Positions 13,105 through 22,266 of a DNA stretch of 39,584 nucleotides are shown here, in pieces (position 1 is the first letter of the stretch; each line of letters starts with the position of its first letter). The stretch covers positions 1-39,584 of IMG/VR virus record IMGVR_UViG_3300047365_000016; one strand, 5' to 3'. The translations under genes and the position numbers were made by a program. The notes beneath the pieces are model-generated. The model searched no databases, was not told the DNA's origin, and saw only the letters and a program-made list of their open reading frames with translations. Source of the stretch: a virus.

Positions 13105-14391
13105 ATGTCTCAGTTAACTGTTGGAACAGTTGTTACAGGAAATGCTAGTTTAACCACTCAAGGTTTAAAACTACCATCTTTTAACAACGCGGGAAGACCA
13201 GCATCCCCAAACGTCGGTCAAATCATTTATAATACCGATGAAAACAAAGCACAGATCTGGAATGGATCTGACTGGGATGAGGTTGGTGGGGGTATCCCCG
13301 AACCTGCAAATATCACTAGAGGATCTTATCTAGTATCCGATGGTGAAAACGGTGTTTTCTGGGCGTATCCTGGTCAAACTGTTGCATCTGCTCCTCTTAC
13401 AGGATTCAGATATAGGAGTTTGATAACACATGGTTTTCTGGTGGCGGGGTATAAAGGATCTAATCCTTGGAGAACTGTTAATAAAACATGGCACGCAAAT
13501 GATATTACATTCTATTGTGGTGAGCAGTTAACTAGAGCACTAACTTATGCTGACTGTACCTGGAGTGATTACTTTGGTTATGCTCACGGTTGCATTAATG
13601 CATTCACGGGAGCATCCAGTCATACTGATTCCATCAACCTACACACAGGTATGAGGAGAATGTTTGGTACTACAGGAAGTAATCCTGGTGGTGGTACTTA
13701 CTCTCCAACTTCCCCATATGGTTGGGAAGGTGACGACCCTAGAGGCGTCATGGGATACACTGTTGTTGGTGGTTGGAACATGCCTGTCAGTAGAGACAGG
13801 AATGCATGTGCTACCGCACAAAAACAACAGTTTGGTTATAACTTAGGTGGCGGTAACGCTGCTGTAGGTAAACTACATTATCCTTCCGAGATTATGTATC
13901 AGGTAGGTAGTTCACCTTCTGGTAGTGATCATACTGCTGCATGTGGAGATGAAGAAAAATCTTGGGCGTCTTTCTCTGGTAGTAGATATTCTGTAGATCA
14001 CTCAAATGATTCCTGGTCTGGTTGGTCATCCAATGCTGCTCCTGATGGAGTTTGTAAGTTCCTACCTTCCAAGTACGGTCATTTCTATGCTGGTACTGGA
14101 AACAATGTCACATCACCATGGTCAAAGTATAGTGGTTCAAGTGGAGCTGGTCTAGCAAACGGAACGAAAGTCCGTGCTTACGGTGAAGAAAACTTCATGA
14201 TGGGACAGGACTGGGGTTATATGATGGGACAATATGATGGTCAACAAAACAACCACACAACCAAGTGGGATTATACTACTGACGTTGAGACCAACATGGG
14301 TGCTGCGACAAGACCCAAAGGTCATTATGGTCAATCTTCTGGCGGTTGCTGTTCTGGTGCCGCTTCTGTAACCGCACTTCAGGCACAATAA
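13105..14391 (+). CDS. tail-fibre-like virion structural protein (428 aa)
   Basis: The N-terminal 65 residues carry a motif shared with other structural genes in the window: SLTTQGLKLPSF, then R-P-x-x-P-x-x-G-Q-I-I-Y-N-T, then QIWNGSDWDEVGGG. The remaining region is unusually rich in Gly, Ser, Tyr, Trp, His and Cys (for example CCSGA near the C-terminus), with many short aromatic motifs and scattered Cys and His, suggesting a compact, possibly metal-binding or disulfide-bearing tip domain. It lies directly downstream of the adhesin pair and has its own late promoter. I read it as a virion appendage protein with a conserved attachment domain and a specialised C-terminal head domain whose family I do not recognise. 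Confidence 0.65.
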   Translation: MSQLTVGTVVTGNASLTTQGLKLPSFNNAGRPASPNVGQIIYNTDENKAQIWNGSDWDEVGGGIPEPANITRGSYLVSDGENGVFWAYPGQTVASAPLTGFRYRSLITHGFLVAGYKGSNPWRTVNKTWHANDITFYCGEQLTRALTYADCTWSDYFGYAHGCINAFTGASSHTDSINLHTGMRRMFGTTGSNPGGGTYSPTSPYGWEGDDPRGVMGYTVVGGWNMPVSRDRNACATAQKQQFGYNLGGGNAAVGKLHYPSEIMYQVGSSPSGSDHTAACGDEEKSWASFSGSRYSVDHSNDSWSGWSSNAAPDGVCKFLPSKYGHFYAGTGNNVTSPWSKYSGSSGAGLANGTKVRAYGEENFMMGQDWGYMMGQYDGQQNNHTTKWDYTTDVETNMGAATRPKGHYGQSSGGCCSGAASVTALQAQ

Positions 14392-15200
14392 TGAGATATC
14401 TAATCATAAACGAAAAGGAAATCAAGCAAGAGCAGTTTGTCAGTTCATCGGCAACTGGAGATCTTCGCTTACATTACAACGAAATGTTTTCGTTGATGCA
14501 CTTCTCGTGTGTAGAAGTTAGCGAAACAATTTATCAAGTCATCTACAAAGAGTGGGAACACAAGTATAAGGAAGTTACTAAACAACAAGCTTATAACGGA
14601 TCTAACTTTTTCTCTGAGATCAGACCTTTTGGTAAGGTTGCTGTAAATACAGGAGAAGCAGGATTTGCTTGGACACCTGCTAATGAAATTCTTAAAGTGC
14701 CCATTGAATTAACGGATAACATTTTAAAAGATGTTATGGATTTTATGGTTGATTTTGCAAAAGAAATTATTGAAGACGAGTACAATACAAGATTTAGAAA
14801 TCTCAAGAACACAACAGATTTAGAATCTGCATCTTGGGAGATTCAAAAACATGAAGCAAGAGAATGGTTGACATATAAAGGAGGACAAGGACACAAAACT
14901 CCTTTCCTAGATTATCTTTCTATGGAAAGACACATTAATAAAGATGAATTAGCAAATAAAATTTTAGTAAAAGCAGAAGAATGGGAAGATAAACTTTCCA
15001 CTATGCTCGTATCATATCAATCATTAGTGAAAAAATTTGAAGATTGCACTTCTGTATGGGACCTAAATATATTATACGAGGATTACATCGGTATCCTCTT
15101 GCCCCAAAAACAAGCAATTGAAATGGGCAGAACGGTCTCTGAAACTGATTGGGATCGCAAACCTGAATATGAGTGTGACGCATATGTCTTTAAATTCTGA
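14391..15200 (+). CDS. conserved-looking phage protein of unknown function (269 aa)
   Basis: The ATG overlaps the previous stop (TAATG). The N-terminus reads MRYLIINEKEIKQEQF; an earlier in-frame ATG at 14346 lies inside the preceding gene and is less likely. The protein is soluble and mixed alpha/beta at first, then mostly helical and highly charged (Glu/Lys) from about residue 115, ending in helices with many aromatic residues. No catalytic motif, signal peptide or membrane segment is visible. It heads a three-gene run of overlapping genes between the fibre region and the oxygenase island. Function unknown; a virion or assembly role is possible from position only. Confidence 0.6.
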   Translation: MRYLIINEKEIKQEQFVSSSATGDLRLHYNEMFSLMHFSCVEVSETIYQVIYKEWEHKYKEVTKQQAYNGSNFFSEIRPFGKVAVNTGEAGFAWTPANEILKVPIELTDNILKDVMDFMVDFAKEIIEDEYNTRFRNLKNTTDLESASWEIQKHEAREWLTYKGGQGHKTPFLDYLSMERHINKDELANKILVKAEEWEDKLSTMLVSYQSLVKKFEDCTSVWDLNILYEDYIGILLPQKQAIEMGRTVSETDWDRKPEYECDAYVFKF

Positions 15201-16026
15201 CGCTAATTTATCTGATATTGTTTCAGATGTAAGAAACATTGTTAGTTCTGATACTAACGAAATCCATTTATCAAAATCTTTCGTAAATGAATTTGGTCTA
15301 ACCAATAAAGATTTTGATATCCTGTCTGCTAGTATGCGCTTTAATAGTGGCATGACAGAGTATGAGTGTGAGCACTTTGTTGCTGACCCTCAATTGACTC
15401 CATGGAGAAAAGTCCGTCAAGCACTGATGGAACTTGAAACTAGGTATCATGCCTACATGGAAAATAGAAACAGTTTAAGAAAAGCAGAAATTTTAAGAAA
15501 GAGATTAATTAGGGACATGGAGTTAGTTCCTGATGAACTCGATAAAGAGTTGATGCAAATTGACATGGAGAAAAATGATTATGATGTTGGTATTTGGAAA
15601 AGAAAACTCAGACAATCTGAACTAGAGTTAAAATATTTTTTAAATATTATTGACAAGTATGTTGACGAGGACAATCCCATTGAATATTACTGTGAAGAAC
15701 AACCACATGAAGTAAGAACCTATTGGGTTGCTCGTATGGGTAAGCAAGCAGCAATGGATATTGTATCGTATGGTAGAATTGGTGCTGGTAACATGACAAC
15801 AATCATGGACATGCCAGAAGAAGATCAAGTGGAAGCACTTGGTGTTGCTGTTAAATATTCTGGTATGATTGGTGGTGGTATTGATAAACTTAATAAAATG
15901 ATCGCACCACAGATCCAAGCACAGTTACAGGAAGATGGTATTGCGCTTCCTAAACTACAGCAACATAAATACTCAGGACAACTACAAATAGAGCAAACTA
16001 ACAATGTCGAGTCAAAGACACCTTGA
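15184..16026 (+). CDS. unrecognised helical phage protein (280 aa)
   Basis: Several in-frame starts exist (15118, 15169, 15184); I prefer 15184 because it minimises overlap with the preceding gene (17 bases), though no start has a convincing ribosome site. Residues about 85-170 are long, highly charged helices likely to form a coiled coil (AEILRKRLIRDMELVPDELD and following). The C-terminal third has Gly-rich hydrophobic segments (VKYSGMIGGGIDKLNKMIAP). No known catalytic motif or membrane segment was seen. It overlaps the next gene by 23 bases, implying translational coupling. Confidence 0.55.
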   Translation: MSLNSDANLSDIVSDVRNIVSSDTNEIHLSKSFVNEFGLTNKDFDILSASMRFNSGMTEYECEHFVADPQLTPWRKVRQALMELETRYHAYMENRNSLRKAEILRKRLIRDMELVPDELDKELMQIDMEKNDYDVGIWKRKLRQSELELKYFLNIIDKYVDEDNPIEYYCEEQPHEVRTYWVARMGKQAAMDIVSYGRIGAGNMTTIMDMPEEDQVEALGVAVKYSGMIGGGIDKLNKMIAPQIQAQLQEDGIALPKLQQHKYSGQLQIEQTNNVESKTP

Positions 16027-16219
16027 ATTGGTTCCTGTAATCCATCACTCTATTCTTCGTAGATATGAATGGGTAGACCAAACAAAAGATCTTAACCGCG
16101 AAAAACTCTTGGAGTTAGCGGAAAGTAATAAGTATATTCTGGACACAAACCCAGAAGCAGAACACATGTATATGGAAAAAGTGATTGTAGATTATGGCAA
16201 AATTTTCTCTCCCTCTTAA
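16004..16219 (+). CDS. small hypothetical protein (71 aa)
   Basis: A short, charged protein beginning MSSQRHLELVPVIHHSILRR, overlapping the genes on both sides by 23 and 26 bases. Overlap at both ends and a full-length ATG-to-stop frame in a tightly packed run support it as real. The sequence is helical-looking with no membrane segment and no cysteines. Family not recognised; it leads into the oxygenase island and may be co-translated with the U32/methyltransferase fusion. Confidence 0.5.
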   Translation: MSSQRHLELVPVIHHSILRRYEWVDQTKDLNREKLLELAESNKYILDTNPEAEHMYMEKVIVDYGKIFSPS

Positions 16220-17885
16220 CACCAAATTACCAGAAGATTTTGTAGTTAATACTTTGATTCCTTTTCTTAAAGAATACAAAGATTACATTTATGATATCTA
16301 TTTCACCTGTCGTATGCCACCTTTCGTGCAAGATGCGATGGGTGATGTTGTTGATGGGGATATGAGAGATACCTCTCTCAATGCTTTATTTGTTTCCCAA
16401 GAGACAGGCATTCCCTTGTCTGCTACATTTAATAATATTCAAGTTCCTCCTACTCAAGAAAACTTAGATATTTTTATTGAAAATTTTAGATTTCTATATG
16501 ATGCAGGAGTTCGTATTGTAACTCTACCCCATACATCATGGGTCTTGACAGGACAGTTGCAGAAAGAGTTTCCTGAACTGTTTATTAAAAATACTATACT
16601 AAGAGAAGTCACAAGACCTAATGAGATTGTGAACCTAGCAAAAGCAGGGTTTCACTATGTCAATCTAGACAGAGATCTTATGCGTGACAGAGATACTCTA
16701 CTTAAGATTAAAGAAGCAAAAGAATACTGTGCTGACATTGGTAAACCAGTAAAAATTTCCTTACTTGCCAATGAATGGTGTTGGGGTGGTTGTCCTATCA
16801 TGCCCGAACATTACCATTACAATATGGTGAGAGAAAAAGATGACCCTCAGTATTTTAATACTAGTTTAAGTAGGGTGTCTTGTTCTTCATGGGATGAAAG
16901 AGATCCTGCAGCATCACTGAAAGCAGCAACTATCCCACCCTGGAAAAAAGATTGGGAAGAGTTTCTTGATCTAGGTATTGATGTATTCAAGATGCATGGC
17001 AGAGAGAATGCAATGCGTCTCATGGAAAGCATGGATATTATCAAACGATGGGCGGCAGACGAGGAGATACTACACCCACAGTTTAATGACTACATTGAAG
17101 ATGTAGCTCTAGAAGAGAAACCAATTGACATCTGGAGAGAGAAGATCAAGACATGTGGTTTTGATTGTTGGAAATGTAATTATTGTGATTCAGTTGTCCA
17201 GTCCAGAATGAAACGTAGTGATAGACATTTTGATGATGATATAGAACTAGTTCTAACATCGATTGAAAAAGCAGCAAGATGTGATAGTGAGTTTGTAGAA
17301 GAAGGATATAAGTATCCAGGATTGTCTTCCAATATCGTAAGGCATTTCTTAAACAACCTTTTGTCTAAACCTGATGCTATCTACATGGAACTTGGTGTTC
17401 ATGCTGGTAGTACATTTTTTGCTGCTACCATGAATAGAGATGTGGAAGCATTTGCTGTTGATGATTATTCAGAAGAAGATATTTCTCCGTTTAGAGATGA
17501 AGTAAATGTAGAGATTGATAACCCAAAGAAAATATTCTTTAATGGGTTGAGAGAGAAACAATACTTCTGTCCCAAATCAATTCAAGATTTGACACCAAAA
17601 AATATACACAAACAACCTAATGTTATTTTTTATGATGCTGATCATGATCCACAATCTCAGTATGATAATCTAACATTTTTGATTCCCGCATTTGCGGACA
17701 AGTTTATTCTTGTTATTGACGATGCAAATTTTATGGGTGTTGTGCAGGCAGCAGAGTTCTTTGTAAAAGAGAACAACTTAAATCTTTTGTTTGAGAGAAA
17801 GATTCTAACCAAAATTCCAGAAGATCCTAATGGATGGTGGAACGGTATTCATGTTATGGTACTTACAAAAAATGAACTCATTTAA
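16194..17885 (+). CDS. U32-peptidase-like Fe-S protein fused to a SAM-dependent methyltransferase-like domain
   Basis: A 563-residue two-domain protein. Residues about 1-340 resemble the U32 family TIM-barrel: a TLPHTSW strand near 110-116, a 'HYVNLDRDLMRD' segment at 154-165 and 'LLANEWCWGGCP' at 190-201. Cysteines at 196, 200 and 230, plus a cluster at 321, 325, 328 and 331, are candidates for an iron-sulfur site. Some U32 members (UbiU/UbiV, RlhA, TrhP) are hydroxylases rather than peptidases. Residues about 370-563 look like a class I methyltransferase: the 'ELGVHAGSTFFAA' SAM-binding loop near 397-409, a 'FYDADHDPQSQYDNL' acidic strand, and 'VIDDANF'. It overlaps the small gene upstream by 26 bases and the first oxygenase by 14. 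Domain assignments are motif-based; substrate unknown. Confidence 0.7.
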   Translation: MAKFSLPLNTKLPEDFVVNTLIPFLKEYKDYIYDIYFTCRMPPFVQDAMGDVVDGDMRDTSLNALFVSQETGIPLSATFNNIQVPPTQENLDIFIENFRFLYDAGVRIVTLPHTSWVLTGQLQKEFPELFIKNTILREVTRPNEIVNLAKAGFHYVNLDRDLMRDRDTLLKIKEAKEYCADIGKPVKISLLANEWCWGGCPIMPEHYHYNMVREKDDPQYFNTSLSRVSCSSWDERDPAASLKAATIPPWKKDWEEFLDLGIDVFKMHGRENAMRLMESMDIIKRWAADEEILHPQFNDYIEDVALEEKPIDIWREKIKTCGFDCWKCNYCDSVVQSRMKRSDRHFDDDIELVLTSIEKAARCDSEFVEEGYKYPGLSSNIVRHFLNNLLSKPDAIYMELGVHAGSTFFAATMNRDVEAFAVDDYSEEDISPFRDEVNVEIDNPKKIFFNGLREKQYFCPKSIQDLTPKNIHKQPNVIFYDADHDPQSQYDNLTFLIPAFADKFILVIDDANFMGVVQAAEFFVKENNLNLLFERKILTKIPEDPNGWWNGIHVMVLTKNELI

Positions 17886-18441
17886 ACATCAATATATGAT
17901 CGTTCATCTTGACGATGATTTTTTTCCTTTATTAGAAAAAGCACTAAAACCATATAACAAATACAATCAAGGTAAAACTGATATATGGGATGGTGATACG
18001 TATACTAGTAGTGAAGATCATCCATATAGAAGCTCTAAAGTTTGTTGGGTAGATGATAGTAATGTATACGAATTAATGGATGGATTGGTTGCGTTTGCAA
18101 ATTCAAAATGTGAGTGGAATCTAGATGTAAATTTTATGGAACCATTTCAACTAACAAAGTATGATGTTAATGATTTTTATGATTGGCACATTGACGAATC
18201 AAACTGGAGTCCTGATAAAAGACCAGAGAATAGAATTCGTAAAATAAGTTTTACTGTTTTATTAAACGATGAGTTTGAGGGTGGTGAATTTGAAATTCGT
18301 ACATCAGAAAAAAATGTGATAGAATTGAAAAAGAGAGATATTATATTATTTCAAGCAGACACTCCACATAGAGTAAAACCAATTACATCAGGTGTTAGAC
18401 ATTCTTTGGTGGGTTGGATACAAGGACCAGCATACAAATGA
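17872..18441 (+). CDS. 2OG-Fe(II) oxygenase-like protein 1 of island (189 aa)
   Basis: Prolyl-4-hydroxylase-like double-stranded beta-helix signature: iron triad H106-x-D108 (DFYDWHIDES) and distal H166 (TPHRV), with 2-oxoglutarate-anchoring R176 (GVRHSLVGW) ten residues later. The intervening 'SFTVLLNDEFEGGEFEI' is the standard strand pair of the PKHD type. Enzymes of this family use O2 and 2-oxoglutarate to hydroxylate protein residues or small molecules. I start at ATG 17872, overlapping the methyltransferase gene by 14 bases; an alternative ATG lies at 17896. Its stop shares an ATGA with the next gene. The target is unknown. Confidence 0.85.
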   Translation: MNSFKHQYMIVHLDDDFFPLLEKALKPYNKYNQGKTDIWDGDTYTSSEDHPYRSSKVCWVDDSNVYELMDGLVAFANSKCEWNLDVNFMEPFQLTKYDVNDFYDWHIDESNWSPDKRPENRIRKISFTVLLNDEFEGGEFEIRTSEKNVIELKKRDIILFQADTPHRVKPITSGVRHSLVGWIQGPAYK

Positions 18442-19001
18442 AATTTATTAAAGAGTATAAATTAAACGATTTATCTATTTGTGATAAGTTAATAGACCTG
18501 TTCCATGTTGCTGACGAGAAAGAGTTAACCTATGCTGGTCGTGTAGGTGGGGGAAGTATTGTCCCTGAAATAAAAAAGAGTAAAGATTTTTTTATTGAAG
18601 AGGCTGCTCCATGTGGATCTGCAAAGGACTATAAATTTGATTTGTATAAAAACCAGGTTGATAGTTTTATAAAAGAATATTTGCAGTCACTAAAGATTGA
18701 TAATTTATCTTTTGTTGCGAAACAATTACCTCAGATTCAATACTACAAACCTGGGGATGGATTCTATACATGGCATGTAGATGCATCTGGTCTTGAAGGT
18801 TGTGATAGAGCGTTTGTCTATATCACGTATCTTAATGATGTCCCTGATGGTGGTACAGAATTTTACTACCAAGATTACACTGTCAAAGCAGAGAAAGGTA
18901 AAACTGTTATCTTTCCAGCAGGTCTTACTCACAAGCATAGAGGACAGATATCAGAGACACAAGAAAAATATATTATTACTGGTTGGATTTGGTGGACATG
19001 A
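18438..19001 (+). CDS. 2OG-Fe(II) oxygenase-like protein 2 of island (187 aa)
   Basis: The iron-binding motif H113-x-D115 (YTWHVDAS) and distal H165 (GLTHKHRG) are present, and K177 occupies the place usually held by the 2OG-binding Arg or Lys. The central 'TYLNDVPDGGTEF' matches the prolyl-hydroxylase-type core. The ATG overlaps the previous stop as ATGA, so the gene is probably translationally coupled. Sequence similarity to the neighbouring oxygenases is low outside the metal motifs, so this is not a fresh tandem copy. Substrate unknown. Confidence 0.8.
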   Translation: MKFIKEYKLNDLSICDKLIDLFHVADEKELTYAGRVGGGSIVPEIKKSKDFFIEEAAPCGSAKDYKFDLYKNQVDSFIKEYLQSLKIDNLSFVAKQLPQIQYYKPGDGFYTWHVDASGLEGCDRAFVYITYLNDVPDGGTEFYYQDYTVKAEKGKTVIFPAGLTHKHRGQISETQEKYIITGWIWWT

Positions 19002-19579
19002 ATAAACCTATTGTTATTAAAAATGTATTACCAGAATCAGAGTGTATTACTCTCTGGGATTATTTTAATCGCAGATCTCCATCCATGAATAGTTTAGCTA
19101 CGTGGACATTCAACAATGCTTCATATGGTCAAGGTGATCCTGTGTCTTGGCAGCATCCACTAAGAACTGATCTTATCTTTACTAAGTGTGCTACTACGGT
19201 AAGATTAAAAATGATGAAGTATCTACGTAGAGATATAAAACTATGTAAGATACATGTCAATGGTCAAACTGCAGGACAGAATACCATCTTCCATAAAGAT
19301 TGGGAAGAGCATGGTGTGTGGACGTTCATTTATTTTAATCAACCACACTGGGATGTAGAGTGGGGTGGTGAATTTGTATGTCAGACACCTGATGATGAAT
19401 ATCATTTCACACCTTATGTTCCTAATACAGGAGTATTCATCCCGTCAAACTGGTTACACAAAGGTCAACCACCCAATAGTTTAATTGGAAATGAAATCAG
19501 GACAACGATTGCTTTTTCTTTCTGTGATCCTGATATACATGAACATATTATTTCACAAACTACAAGAAAATGGTATTAG
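18998..19579 (+). CDS. 2OG-Fe(II) oxygenase-like protein 3 of island (193 aa)
   Basis: H99-x-D101 (TIFHKDWEE) is followed by the strands 'WTFIYFNQPHWDVEWGGEF', then distal H154 (SNWLHKGQPP) and R168 (EIRTTIAFSF). This order and spacing fit a 2-oxoglutarate/Fe(II) dioxygenase. The N-terminus (MNKPIVIKNVLPESECITLW) follows the common pattern of an N-terminal helix before the beta-helix core. It starts on an ATGA overlap with gene 2 and overlaps gene 4 by 10 bases. 'WGGEFVC' and the GVFIPSNWLHKG strand resemble sugar- or protein-modifying relatives, but I cannot name a target. Confidence 0.78.
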   Translation: MNKPIVIKNVLPESECITLWDYFNRRSPSMNSLATWTFNNASYGQGDPVSWQHPLRTDLIFTKCATTVRLKMMKYLRRDIKLCKIHVNGQTAGQNTIFHKDWEEHGVWTFIYFNQPHWDVEWGGEFVCQTPDDEYHFTPYVPNTGVFIPSNWLHKGQPPNSLIGNEIRTTIAFSFCDPDIHEHIISQTTRKWY

Positions 19580-20085
19580 CAATTAGGGGATATCCAGTAG
19601 ATATTGATGCAGATAAACTTATAAAATTTATTGATACTTCTATTGTAGATAATACCCTTACTAAAAATATGGATCATGTATCTAAACTTACCTTTACTGA
19701 TGGTAAGGATGATTTTTTAGAACATGATGAACCTATGATCAAACATTTAAAATGGTCTTTCTATGATGCATGTTCCAGGTTTTGGGGTATGGATATATTT
19801 GATTACAATATAAGTTCGTGGGTGTATGTAGATTGGAATAACAATCCAATAGAACCATACATGCATTCACATAATCCAGAGAATCCTTTTACATTGTCTG
19901 GTATAATGTATGTAAAATTAGGTACATCTGGAACTACAATGTTTCCTATACCGAAAAGAGAACCATATTACTTGCCCAATAAATTACTGACGTGGTTTAT
20001 ATTTCCATCCAATCTACCACATACACCAGGTAAAGGAGTGGAAGATCAAAAACGATACAGTATAAGTGCTGATTTATATCCATGA
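19570..20085 (+). CDS. 2OG-Fe(II) oxygenase-like protein 4 of island, HxH type (171 aa)
   Basis: The proximal motif is H99-x-H101 (PYMHSHNP) instead of HxD, followed by 'LSGIMYVKL', distal H151 (IFPSNLPHTPG) and R162 (KRYSISADL). The run of His-x-His, SG-x-x-Y-V, FPS-x-x-x-H and R-x-S-I-S is the signature I associate with the small phage/bacterial family 2OG-FeII_Oxy_5. The protein is short but has the whole core. ATG at 19570 gives a 10-base overlap with gene 3; its stop overlaps gene 5 as ATGA. Whether the second His replaces Asp as an iron ligand cannot be told from sequence. Confidence 0.7.
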   Translation: MVLAIRGYPVDIDADKLIKFIDTSIVDNTLTKNMDHVSKLTFTDGKDDFLEHDEPMIKHLKWSFYDACSRFWGMDIFDYNISSWVYVDWNNNPIEPYMHSHNPENPFTLSGIMYVKLGTSGTTMFPIPKREPYYLPNKLLTWFIFPSNLPHTPGKGVEDQKRYSISADLYP

Positions 20086-20687
20086 TTTATCAACAAAGCA
20101 ACCTCTCATTTATATCAGAGAAAATACCAGATAATGTATACAAAGATCTATACACATACACAAAGAAACGTAGACAAGAAAGAACCTGGAATTATAATGG
20201 GCGACTAGCTGGTGCCTTGGCACAGCAGTCAAGTTTATCTGAATGGAAGTATGAGTGTCCTAAATTTGAAGAATATGTTATTAATCTTTCGACACAACTG
20301 TGGTCTGAGGTATATGAAACCTGTCCGTGGGATTTTCAACAGACAAATAATGTTACACCATATATCAAACTAAGAAACCTATGGGTAAATTATCAGAGAC
20401 AAAATGAATACAATCCTATCCATACACATTCTGGTATTGTGAGTTTTGTTATCTTTGTCGATATACCATATGGTGAAGAAGAGAGAAACACACATAGAAG
20501 CAATGGTGCGTTCCAACTAGAAGCAGAAGTGTTACCTGTGGATAAGTCCTGGAACGGTGTTATACTAATGTTTCCATCTACAACTAAACATGCTGTCTAT
20601 CCTTTTAAATCTACCATACTTGAGAGAGTGACAGTATCTGGAAACTTAACTTGGAACGTGGAGGGTCCTGATGAAGAACATTATTAA
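20082..20687 (+). CDS. 2OG-Fe(II) oxygenase-like protein 5 of island, HxH type (201 aa)
   Basis: Like its neighbour this carries H114-x-H116 (NPIHTHSG) after 'LWVNYQRQNEYN', then a hydrophobic strand 'VSFVIFVDIPYG', distal H170 (MFPSTTKHAVYPF) and R182 (LERVTVSGNL). The spacing fits the 2OG-FeII_Oxy_5-like pattern. The N-terminal 100 residues, rich in aromatic and charged residues, differ from gene 4, so the pair are distant relatives. ATGA overlap with gene 4 and a 17-base overlap with gene 6 indicate coupled translation. Substrate unknown. Confidence 0.7.
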   Translation: MIYQQSNLSFISEKIPDNVYKDLYTYTKKRRQERTWNYNGRLAGALAQQSSLSEWKYECPKFEEYVINLSTQLWSEVYETCPWDFQQTNNVTPYIKLRNLWVNYQRQNEYNPIHTHSGIVSFVIFVDIPYGEEERNTHRSNGAFQLEAEVLPVDKSWNGVILMFPSTTKHAVYPFKSTILERVTVSGNLTWNVEGPDEEHY

Positions 20688-21213
20688 AGACAACTGTATC
20701 AATCCAAACTATCAAAATTTTATTCACGAAACATTGAGAGTTGATACAGATTTTAGGTGGGTCTACCACGACAATCTATCAGAAGATGGAGAGAGTCAAC
20801 TACCAGGATTTTCTCATATGTTCTTACTTGACGGAAAATCTACTAGCAGTTATACTGGAATGTTTATGCCTCTCTTATTTGAGGCATGTTATAATACAGG
20901 AATCAGTGTTTCTAATGTCATTCGCGGTAGATGTTTTTTACAGACGCCTGGAGTGAGACATAAAGAATATGATTCTATGCATGTTGACTTAGCAGATCCA
21001 CATATGGTCTGTCTATATTATGTAAATGATAGTGATGGTGATACGTATTTTAGTGAAAGAATGTACGGAGATCCGATTGCTGAATATGATATAAATAGCA
21101 ATGTCACACCAAAGAAGGGACGGTGTGTTTTCTTTGATGGTTTACGTTTTCACTCAAGCAGTAAACCCACACACAATTCCCGATTTGTAATTAACTTCAA
21201 TTTCATCCCCTGA
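20671..21213 (+). CDS. 2OG-Fe(II) oxygenase-like protein 6 of island (180 aa)
   Basis: The iron motif H104-x-D106 (SMHVDLADPH) is followed by 'VCLYYVNDSDGDTYF', then H161 (DGLRFHSSSKP) and R171 (NSRFVINFNF). The order HxD, strand with Y-Y-V-N-D, G-D-T-x-F, then FFDG-x-x-F-H and R-x-V-I-N-F-N matches a phage-type 2OG dioxygenase. It closes the six-gene array; six bases downstream begins the small coiled-coil gene, and the run ends at the terminator near 21424. Target unknown. Confidence 0.75.
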   Translation: MKNIIKDNCINPNYQNFIHETLRVDTDFRWVYHDNLSEDGESQLPGFSHMFLLDGKSTSSYTGMFMPLLFEACYNTGISVSNVIRGRCFLQTPGVRHKEYDSMHVDLADPHMVCLYYVNDSDGDTYFSERMYGDPIAEYDINSNVTPKKGRCVFFDGLRFHSSSKPTHNSRFVINFNFIP

Positions 21214-21218
21214 TAACT

Positions 21219-21416
21219 ATGGATCCCGCACAACTTAAAACAAACTTTGAAGAGCAAATTGCTACAACCGAAAAGCAAATTGCTGAACTCGAAACAAATC
21301 TAGTCAAAGCAAAAGAATATAAAATTAAATTGGAAGGCGGTCTAGAAACTCTAGGTCTTCTAGAAGAGAAACCTGAGGAAGCAGCAGAAGCAGCGCCCAC
21401 AGAAGTAGTAGAATAA
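21219..21416 (+). CDS. small acidic coiled-coil protein (65 aa)
   Basis: Residues about 5-45 form one amphipathic, Glu/Lys/Gln-rich helix with heptad-like leucine and isoleucine spacing, followed by a Glu/Ala/Pro tail (EEKPEEAAEAAP). No cysteine, membrane segment or catalytic motif is present. It is the last gene before a strong terminator and gp13. A structural or chaperone-like role is possible; nothing in the sequence decides it. Confidence 0.6.
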   Translation: MDPAQLKTNFEEQIATTEKQIAELETNLVKAKEYKIKLEGGLETLGLLEEKPEEAAEAAPTEVVE

Positions 21417-21465: not shown

Positions 21466-22266
21466 ATGGCGTCTCCAAATTCAAGAGCTGATCTTATCAC
21501 ATATTGTAAGAGGCAACTTGGTGAGCCTGTATTACAAGTTAACATTGATGACGAACAAGTAAATAATGTTATTGATGACACGTATCAGTTCTTCCAAGAG
21601 AACTGCTACAACGGCATGGAAAGATGTTTCATGAGGCATGAAATCACTGCCGATGACATAACTCGTTTCAATGGTAAGTCAACAACATCATCTGGAACAA
21701 CAAACTGGGAAGAGTCTACTAACTATATTCCTGTTCCAGATCATGTAGTTGGTGTCAGTAAAGTTTTTGGTTTAGTCAGCAACTCAATTAGATCTAATCT
21801 CTTTGGTGTTGAGTATCAGATGTTCCTGAATGATCTATATGCATTCGGATCTCTTGATATTGTCAACTACTTTATGAATAAGCAGTATCTAGAAACTCTA
21901 GATATGATTCTGAATAATGGTTCGTTCCAACAGTTCAGATATACACAGCGTCGTGATCGTTTATATCTTGACATCAATAAAGCATTCCTCAAAGAAGATA
22001 CTTATCTTGTAATTGAGGCACATAGGATGATTGATCCTACAGATGCTACAGAGATGAATAATGATATGTTTGTCAAGAAATATGCTACTGCTCTTATGAA
22101 GAGACAGTGGGGTCAAAACTTGATTAAATATAACAACGTTCAACTACCTGGCGGTATCACGCTTAATGGTAGAGAATTGTATACAGACGCATTAGGCGAG
22201 ATTGAGAAAATCGAAAGCGAAGTTCTCAGTAAGTACGCCATCCCACCTATGGATATGATCGGATAA
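21466..22266 (+). CDS. gp13: neck protein gp13
   Basis: 266 residues in the position expected for the T4-like neck protein gp13, directly before gp14. gp13 and gp14 seal the filled head and form the collar to which the tail joins. The sequence begins MASPNSRADLITYCKRQLGE and has 'INIDDEQVNNVIDDTYQFF'-type helical segments early on, both typical of cyanophage gp13; it is shorter than T4 gp13 (309). I start at ATG 21466; a TTG three codons earlier is inside the terminator tail and unlikely. The gene ends one base before gp14. Assignment rests on sequence style and strict synteny. Confidence 0.88.
   Translation: MASPNSRADLITYCKRQLGEPVLQVNIDDEQVNNVIDDTYQFFQENCYNGMERCFMRHEITADDITRFNGKSTTSSGTTNWEESTNYIPVPDHVVGVSKVFGLVSNSIRSNLFGVEYQMFLNDLYAFGSLDIVNYFMNKQYLETLDMILNNGSFQQFRYTQRRDRLYLDINKAFLKEDTYLVIEAHRMIDPTDATEMNNDMFVKKYATALMKRQWGQNLIKYNNVQLPGGITLNGRELYTDALGEIEKIESEVLSKYAIPPMDMIG

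Follow-up and report, generated by a model that had tools for sequence, protein, structure and literature searches.

A stretch of viral DNA, IMG/VR record IMGVR_UViG_3300047365_000016 (positions 1 to 39,584, all of which were analysed and are called the window here), carries an array of seven overlapping open reading frames (ORFs) on the + strand between positions 16194 and 21213. The ORF listing of the window agrees in this with the initial annotation, which had described seven adjacent, overlapping genes. The first gene encodes a protein with a predicted U32-like part and a predicted O-methyltransferase part in one chain (the fusion gene), and the following six (ox1 to ox6) encode predicted Fe(II)/2-oxoglutarate (2OG) oxygenases. 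We tentatively read the locus as an array for oxidative tailoring that is active late and whose target is most likely a virion protein of the fibre locus, a reading that we favour although we rate it as somewhat short of probable. Many 2OG oxygenases have been known in cyanophage genomes since 2010; here a group of them is linked to a unit of late virion genes.

The oxygenase genes, all on the + strand, are ox1 (17872..18441), ox2 (18438..19001), ox3 (18998..19579), ox4 (19570..20085), ox5 (20082..20687) and ox6 (20671..21213). All six products matched families of the PHROGs database, two each in phrog_61 (ox1, 5.9e-36; ox2, 1.6e-40), phrog_274 (ox3, 1.1e-17; ox6, 4.3e-35) and phrog_81 (ox4, 6.7e-7; ox5, 4e-21). 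With Pfam, three were above the family cut-off, namely ox1 and ox2 (PF13640, 1.7e-15 and 3.4e-12) and ox5 (PF13759, 7.1e-11); ox3 (1.9e-4), ox6 (7.3e-5) and ox4 (PF13759, 0.009) were below it. The nearest solved structures for ox1 are PKHD-type hydroxylases. The weakest of the six by profile is ox4. A relative of it (39% identity over residues 63-170) matched PF13759 (5.3e-5) and phrog_81 (5.2e-10), and alignment of ox4 with the ox5 type by hhalign (probability 73%, E 3.1e-5) gave moderate support. Among phage records the best long match of ox5 had 32.5% identity over 90% of the length (another had 42.7% over 48%), and phmmer searches with ox2, ox5 and ox6 yielded nothing useful.

The catalytic residues were invariant across the aligned orthologues: H109xD111/H169/R179 in ox1, H113xD115/H165 and H167 in ox2, H99xD101/H154/R168 in ox3, H99xH101/H151/R162 in ox4, H114xH116/H170/R182 in ox5 and H104xD106/H161/R171 in ox6. 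The distal base of ox2, Lys177, was seen in the window sequence only. Each gene compared is under purifying selection, with ratios of nonsynonymous to synonymous substitution rates (dN/dS) of 0.02-0.44 where dS was unsaturated. Judged by sequence, the predicted membership of ox1-ox6 in the Fe(II)/2OG oxygenase superfamily was supported, and profile comparison did not put most of the six outside the 2OG families. This bears out the initial annotation, which had proposed six such proteins, each with an HxD or HxH motif, a distal His and an Arg or Lys. It was also right that these are not recent tandem copies: tandem duplication was rejected because ox1 is only 9-18% identical to the other five. 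Its suggestion that the enzymes were separately acquired needs to be modified: they form three families of two members each, and these families recur together in other cyanophages, which points rather to reshuffling within a pool shared among phages.

In several cyanophage records phrog_274 is annotated as denV. The catalytic pattern and the cross-matches speak against the label 'DNA endonuclease V', and the family looks like a 2OG-oxygenase family (examples are 18998-19579 and 20671-21213 in the window, L002:8698-9195 and L093:19722-20243; L numbers denote the other loci compared). Likewise, phrog_2297, labelled 'DNA endonuclease', appears 2OG-like, as S-SM1_053 matches PF13640 at 4.7e-10.

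The fusion gene (16194..17885, + strand, 563 aa; T4-GC354) belongs to phrog_1458, a conserved cyanophage family without a name, which its product matches over residues 49-559 (2.9e-231). The analysis thereby adds a conserved fusion enzyme whose chemistry is open to test. With the PF01136 (U32) profile the window protein had no hit at E values up to 1; of eight records searched, one had a weak hit (E 0.11) located in the fusion ORF. Because the profile fails on the window protein, we use the term U32-like and refrain from assigning the protein to the U32 family. PF13578 (Methyltransf_24) matched below cut-off (2.8e-4). The whole chain was modelled by AlphaFold2 with a mean predicted local distance difference test score (pLDDT) of 80, the cysteine-rich stretches being modelled poorly, and residues 1-350 alone with a mean of 76. 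When the front part of the whole-chain model was compared with known structures by VIA-align, the U32 structure 5d88 came first (Z 15.9, root-mean-square deviation (rmsd) 3.0, 217 residues aligned). The same structure came first with the front domain alone (Z 15.8, rmsd 3.6, 217 aligned), followed by MTHFR barrels from Z 13.9; the structure compared is a predicted one, and high scores are common among barrels of any kind. The rear part resembled COMT-fold O-methyltransferases, among them TrmR (5zw3, Z 15.9, rmsd 3.3, 172 aligned). The first Foldseek list for the whole protein consisted mostly of methyltransferases and pyruvate kinase, and a search of PDB sequences with the fusion profile returned only three matches (E 1.8-2.6), which were taken as chance. 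Taken together, the models support a U32-like barrel joined to a COMT/TrmR-like O-methyltransferase. Of the U32-methyltransferase fusion initially annotated, the two predicted folds therefore stand, whereas the U32 family assignment finds no PF01136 match. In a viral structure library the protein also matched an Escherichia phage 'Peptidase' (E 1.8e-10, 20% identity).

Residues E399, G401, G405, D423, D481, D509, D510 and N512 were invariant in 32/32 aligned relatives and may include the counterparts of the COMT metal residues. Also invariant were C39, C196, C200, C230, C321, C325, C328 and C331, while C179 was kept in 31 of the 32, as judged by eye. UbiV binds a [4Fe-4S] cluster through C39, C180, C193 and C197 (PMC6747719). 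Its cysteine layout, C-Xn-C-X12-C-X3-C, is close to but not identical with that of the phage protein, in which X16 replaces X12 and an extra motif, CX3CX2CX2C (C321/325/328/331), is present. In Bacillus subtilis, 5-methoxyuridine at tRNA uridine 34 is made by the U32 proteins TrhP1/TrhP2 and then TrmR (PMC6599085), that is, by U32-type proteins and a COMT-fold O-methyltransferase acting in sequence. There the enzymes are separate proteins, whereas the phage version is one chain, has no PF01136 match and has cysteines nearer to those of UbiV.

The neighbours of the array are late genes of T4-like cyanophages: it is located between the T4-GC 351-353 genes, with a tail fibre assembly match (phrog_863) also upstream, and a downstream group of genes for a head-tail adaptor, for head closure and for a sheath stabiliser. 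The cyanophage late promoter has been reported as NATAAATA (PMC2984593). Its core, ATAAATA, heads the unit at 15965..15971 (+ strand), inside the end of gene 353 and 229 bp before the fusion gene, and the next core, at 21091..21097 (+ strand), lies inside ox6, upstream of the neck genes. Environmental relatives from IMG/VR were considered as a cassette clade and an outer clade. In 25/25 cassette-clade loci examined the core was found at -216 to -287, always spelled CAT AAA TA though synonymous changes are possible; of the 14 outer-clade loci, one shows a core in the preceding 330 bp, at -190. The next core fell inside the last oxygenase gene or just past the cassette in 11 of 12 clade loci; L027, the only such case of the 12, has a core within the cassette, and L039 shows none. 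The window has ten cores on the + strand and none on the - strand, and none of 200 shuffled sequences combined at least ten on + with none on -. A scan for sigma-70-type promoters gave fewer hits than in shuffles (34 vs 48.1) and was uninformative. The promoter motif and the place in the fibre-to-neck gene block support the prediction that the array is a late unit.

S-SM1, Syn9, S-SSM5, P-RSM4, S-SSM7 and S-ShM2 have arrays of the same families within or close to their fibre locus. In S-SM1 (SSM1_051-059), Syn9 (gp45-gp53) and others the families and the tight packing on the + strand are as in the window, and the Syn9 array adjoins tail fibre assembly genes. Each of 18 cyanophage isolates held 6 to 23 loci of phrog_61, phrog_274 and phrog_81. 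The longest strict run, with gaps of up to 200 bp, was four, in 5/18 isolates (S-SM1, S-SSM7, S-SSM5, Syn9 and P-RSM4); counting these three families misses other 2OG genes, and S-ShM2 and S-SCSM1, each with an annotated run of four, were scored as having two. The most loci within 8 kb were eight in Syn9 and seven in S-SM1. The strict run of six in the window is thus longer than in the 18 isolates, yet of the same kind, and what distinguishes it is its place directly behind the fusion gene, which was not found in S-SM1 or S-SCSM1 (0/2). Cyanophage S-SCSM1 has 24 2OG-oxygenase genes (PMC9602691), a similarly large and divergent repertoire; four consecutive ones (240-243) precede a tail-fibre gene annotated as virion protein, but it lacks the fusion gene and its 2OG genes are spread over the genome. 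Numerous 2OG genes in cyanophages are on record (PMC3037559, PMC9602691, PMC9964418). The claim that six in a row has no parallel was accordingly rejected: the array is confirmed as real, but its rarity, set by the initial annotation against single genes as the common state, was overstated. A search for the same gene order gave a divided answer, in that no searched phage record holds most of the cassette while fibre-locus 2OG arrays are ordinary. What the comparison does show is that three oxygenase families gather repeatedly in such slots.

Relatives of ox4 occur as well in podovirus-like marine contigs, within arrays of at least seven 2OG-type genes (L147:121-6333 and L150:503-6200; DNA ejection protein match, 2.8e-10). 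The L150 array comprises seven genes with some Pfam 2OG match (one only 0.039) plus a tryptophan halogenase (2.5e-31) and directly precedes the virion structural gene phrog_3287.

In the reading that we favour, each oxygenase would hydroxylate its own site, since the six are separately conserved and share little identity. The fusion enzyme would hydroxylate and then O-methylate, as suggested by its two folds and by the TrhP/TrmR pathway. The substrate would be a phage protein produced simultaneously, with the neighbouring fibre-locus genes as its most likely source, given the position, the late motif and the recurrence at fibre loci. Gain, loss or replacement of oxygenases between relatives would then alter the surface chemistry of the particle with the fibre fold unchanged. 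Among the papers listed by searches of the open PMC library on phage 2OG hydroxylases and tail fibres, on hydroxyproline in bacteriophage virions, on peptidase U32 in cyanophages and on U32 with a methyltransferase in phages, none describes such a system in its title or abstract. A broader and more speculative version, which we think rather improbable, is that exchangeable arrays of marine phages (made up of 2OG hydroxylases and the fusion, and in other phages of tryptophan halogenases and an Fe-S protein resembling QueG) mature the phage's own particle proteins late, in the manner of ribosomally synthesized and post-translationally modified peptides (RiPPs), swapping enzymes and not fibre sequence. 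If true, the surface chemistry of fibres evolves by enzyme swapping instead of by change of the fibre sequence.

Several observations weigh against a virion-protein target. U32 hydroxylases of known target use nucleobases or quinone, not protein (PMC6599085, PMC6747719), TrmR was tied with many COMT-like O-methyltransferases in the comparison of the rear part, and related clusters were interpreted by Iyer et al. 2021 (PMC7824862) in terms of metabolite or capsule chemistry. The position may say little, given that insertions are frequent at fibre loci. In S-ShM2 the fusion gene is about 5.7 kb from 353, with four 2OG-type genes, petE and gnd between them, and S-SCSM1 and S-CAM4 have 2OG genes away from fibre loci. 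The total of promoter cores on both strands is not enriched over shuffles (10 vs 12.7), and because the upstream core overlaps His-Lys-Tyr codons of 353, it may be conserved in part for the protein sequence. In pairwise comparisons, identities of the fusion protein track those of 353 (r 0.96), 352 (0.95), ox4 (0.94) and ox6 (0.92), and less those of ox2 (0.85), ox5 (0.79), ox3 (0.76) and, least, ox1 (0.50); co-variation therefore singles out no target, as ox4 and ox6 track nearly as well as 353 and 352.

The distribution among relatives bears on another explanation, possible but on balance doubtful, in which the locus is a shared hot spot without a shared target: the oxygenases would be independent late cargo, and only the fusion would belong functionally with 351-353. 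By tblastn the fusion gene was found in 123 of 50,697 phage records (best identity 57%), all named Synechococcus, Prochlorococcus or cyanophage, and gene 353 likewise in 123 (E limits 1e-5 and 1e-3 for these counts; the agreement was seen in the breakdown by the first word of the name). None of 235 matching phage records holds at least 80% of the island DNA in one place, although very close records were possibly outside the set. In IMG/VR, 100 of 103 pattern stretches encode a fusion relative, and in the best 80 loci, to which the comparisons refer, the fusion gene follows 353 wherever the contig reaches that far. In 49 of the 80 the interval that starts at the fusion gene and is closed by phrog_580 or the adaptor gene was complete (incomplete ones were left out); it contained 0-7 oxygenases, with six or more in 20 intervals. 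Genes were counted by BLAST matches to those of the window and by ORF size, and the counts are not independent since many contigs are near-identical. Among 27 cassette-clade intervals, 11 had seven oxygenases, nine had six, five had five, one had four and one had two. A 182-aa gene was assigned by Pfam on L009 (PF13640, 1.2e-6) and counted elsewhere by size. The 22 outer-clade intervals, of which representatives were tested by Pfam, held no oxygenase in four cases, one 2OG gene in one, one 2OG gene plus an Fe-S protein in two, two 2OG genes plus an Fe-S protein in ten and a DUF6445-size gene in five, two of the last with further ORFs. The term 'accessory island' of the initial annotation thus fits the oxygenases but not the fusion gene, which is found in as many records as 353.

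The variable oxygenase number in one slot favours the hot-spot explanation, as does L013, in which ox1 is 47% identical to that of the window while its neighbours are 81-91% identical. Other genes occupy the same slot, too. In L032, L036 and L037 a 125-aa gene between ox1 and ox2 encodes S-adenosylmethionine decarboxylase (SpeD; by Pfam on L032, L032:11219-11593). An Fe-S protein is encoded at L062:11321-12103, L059:9682-10530 and L074:11315-12106, and also at L093:22317-23015; that of L062 is similar to reductive dehalogenase (3.2e-10) and QueG (4.8e-8) models. The DUF6445 protein of L077:4781-5488 (PF20043, 2.1e-15) has an HTD...H...R pattern and is possibly of a 2OG-type family. On the other side, the same three families were collected together repeatedly, and even lineages whose fusion protein is 72-73% identical (L050, L051) retain the ox1-ox6 order. 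S-SM1_058, an Fe-S protein within the S-SM1 array, is weakly similar to QueG (5.2e-4) and related to the L062 protein (E 2e-7).

We consider it less likely that the array serves to synthesise or modify a small molecule or a glycan of the host surface, such as a secondary metabolite, an antibiotic or the capsule. This was predicted by Iyer et al. (PMC7824862, section 3.4.10) for a halogenase/carbamoyltransferase/2OG cluster of jumbo cyanophages; in their 'second gene cluster' (sugar- and amino-acid-modifying) several 2OG enzymes and, in some variants, O-methyltransferases are present as here, while 'U32' does not occur in the main text. In Syn9, S-SSM5 and P-RSM4 the 2OG genes are found together with halogenases or a Nol-like carbamoyltransferase, and a halogenase occurs in the podovirus-like contigs. 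In the Syn9 fibre locus (NC_008296 32965-44788, L165) two tryptophan halogenases are near eight 2OG-family loci, unlike in the window. However, halogenase (PF04820), carbamoyltransferase (PF02543) and GT2 glycosyltransferase were each found in 0/8 records, those of the window and seven relatives, all of them partial, and a unit within the virion block behind a late motif would be oddly timed for chemistry serving host competitiveness.

Still less likely, in our view, does the fusion enzyme modify an RNA base by hydroxylation and O-methylation like TrhP plus TrmR, the oxygenases being unrelated. In the models both halves match folds of that pathway, but other O-methyltransferases tie with TrmR, the gene context is that of virion genes and no tRNA gene was found in the window. 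The 2010 proposal that the oxygenases consume 2-oxoglutarate and thereby retune host nitrogen signalling through NtcA is favoured by the numerous 2OG genes in 14/16 genomes and the NtcA sites in 16/16 (PMC3037559); it is very improbable here, because bulk turnover would not call for six active sites, from three families, each conserved separately, and would be expected early, not in a late virion unit.

The genes flanking the array, all on the + strand, are as follows. Upstream, the gene at 13105..14391 (phrog_1417, 8.9e-70) is T4-GC351-like; it occupies the T4-GC351 place of Syn33, P-SSM4 and Syn19, and its RefSeq cyanophage counterparts are named 'sericin 1 precursor-like'. It is followed by a T4-GC352-like gene (14391..15200), predicted from its match to phrog_1604 (5.7e-39) and with no Pfam family above cut-off, and by the T4-GC353-like gene (15184..16026, start 15169 or 15184; phrog_1409, 9.1e-57). 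In the part of P-SSM7 that was viewed, a T4-GC351 gene is present but 353 and 354 are not, and T4-GC351 is therefore separable from these. A small ORF of 71 aa (16004..16219), which matched no Pfam family, opens the unit. Downstream, a small conserved gene (21219..21416; phrog_580, 3.6e-20) forms the right border of the variable interval, and the head-tail adaptor Ad2 gene (T4 gp13-like, 21469..22266; phrog_211, 1.3e-43) is the first of the neck-gene block.

A bacterial origin of the fusion gene was rejected on one scan of genome contigs, which found two relatives among 15 candidate stretches, both on contigs of metagenome-assembled genomes (10,153 and 3,025 bp). The longer one looks like phage DNA in the bin, since relatives of 351-353 adjoin the fusion relative. 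Among 14 control genomes the phrog_1458 profile matched one, that of M. jannaschii.

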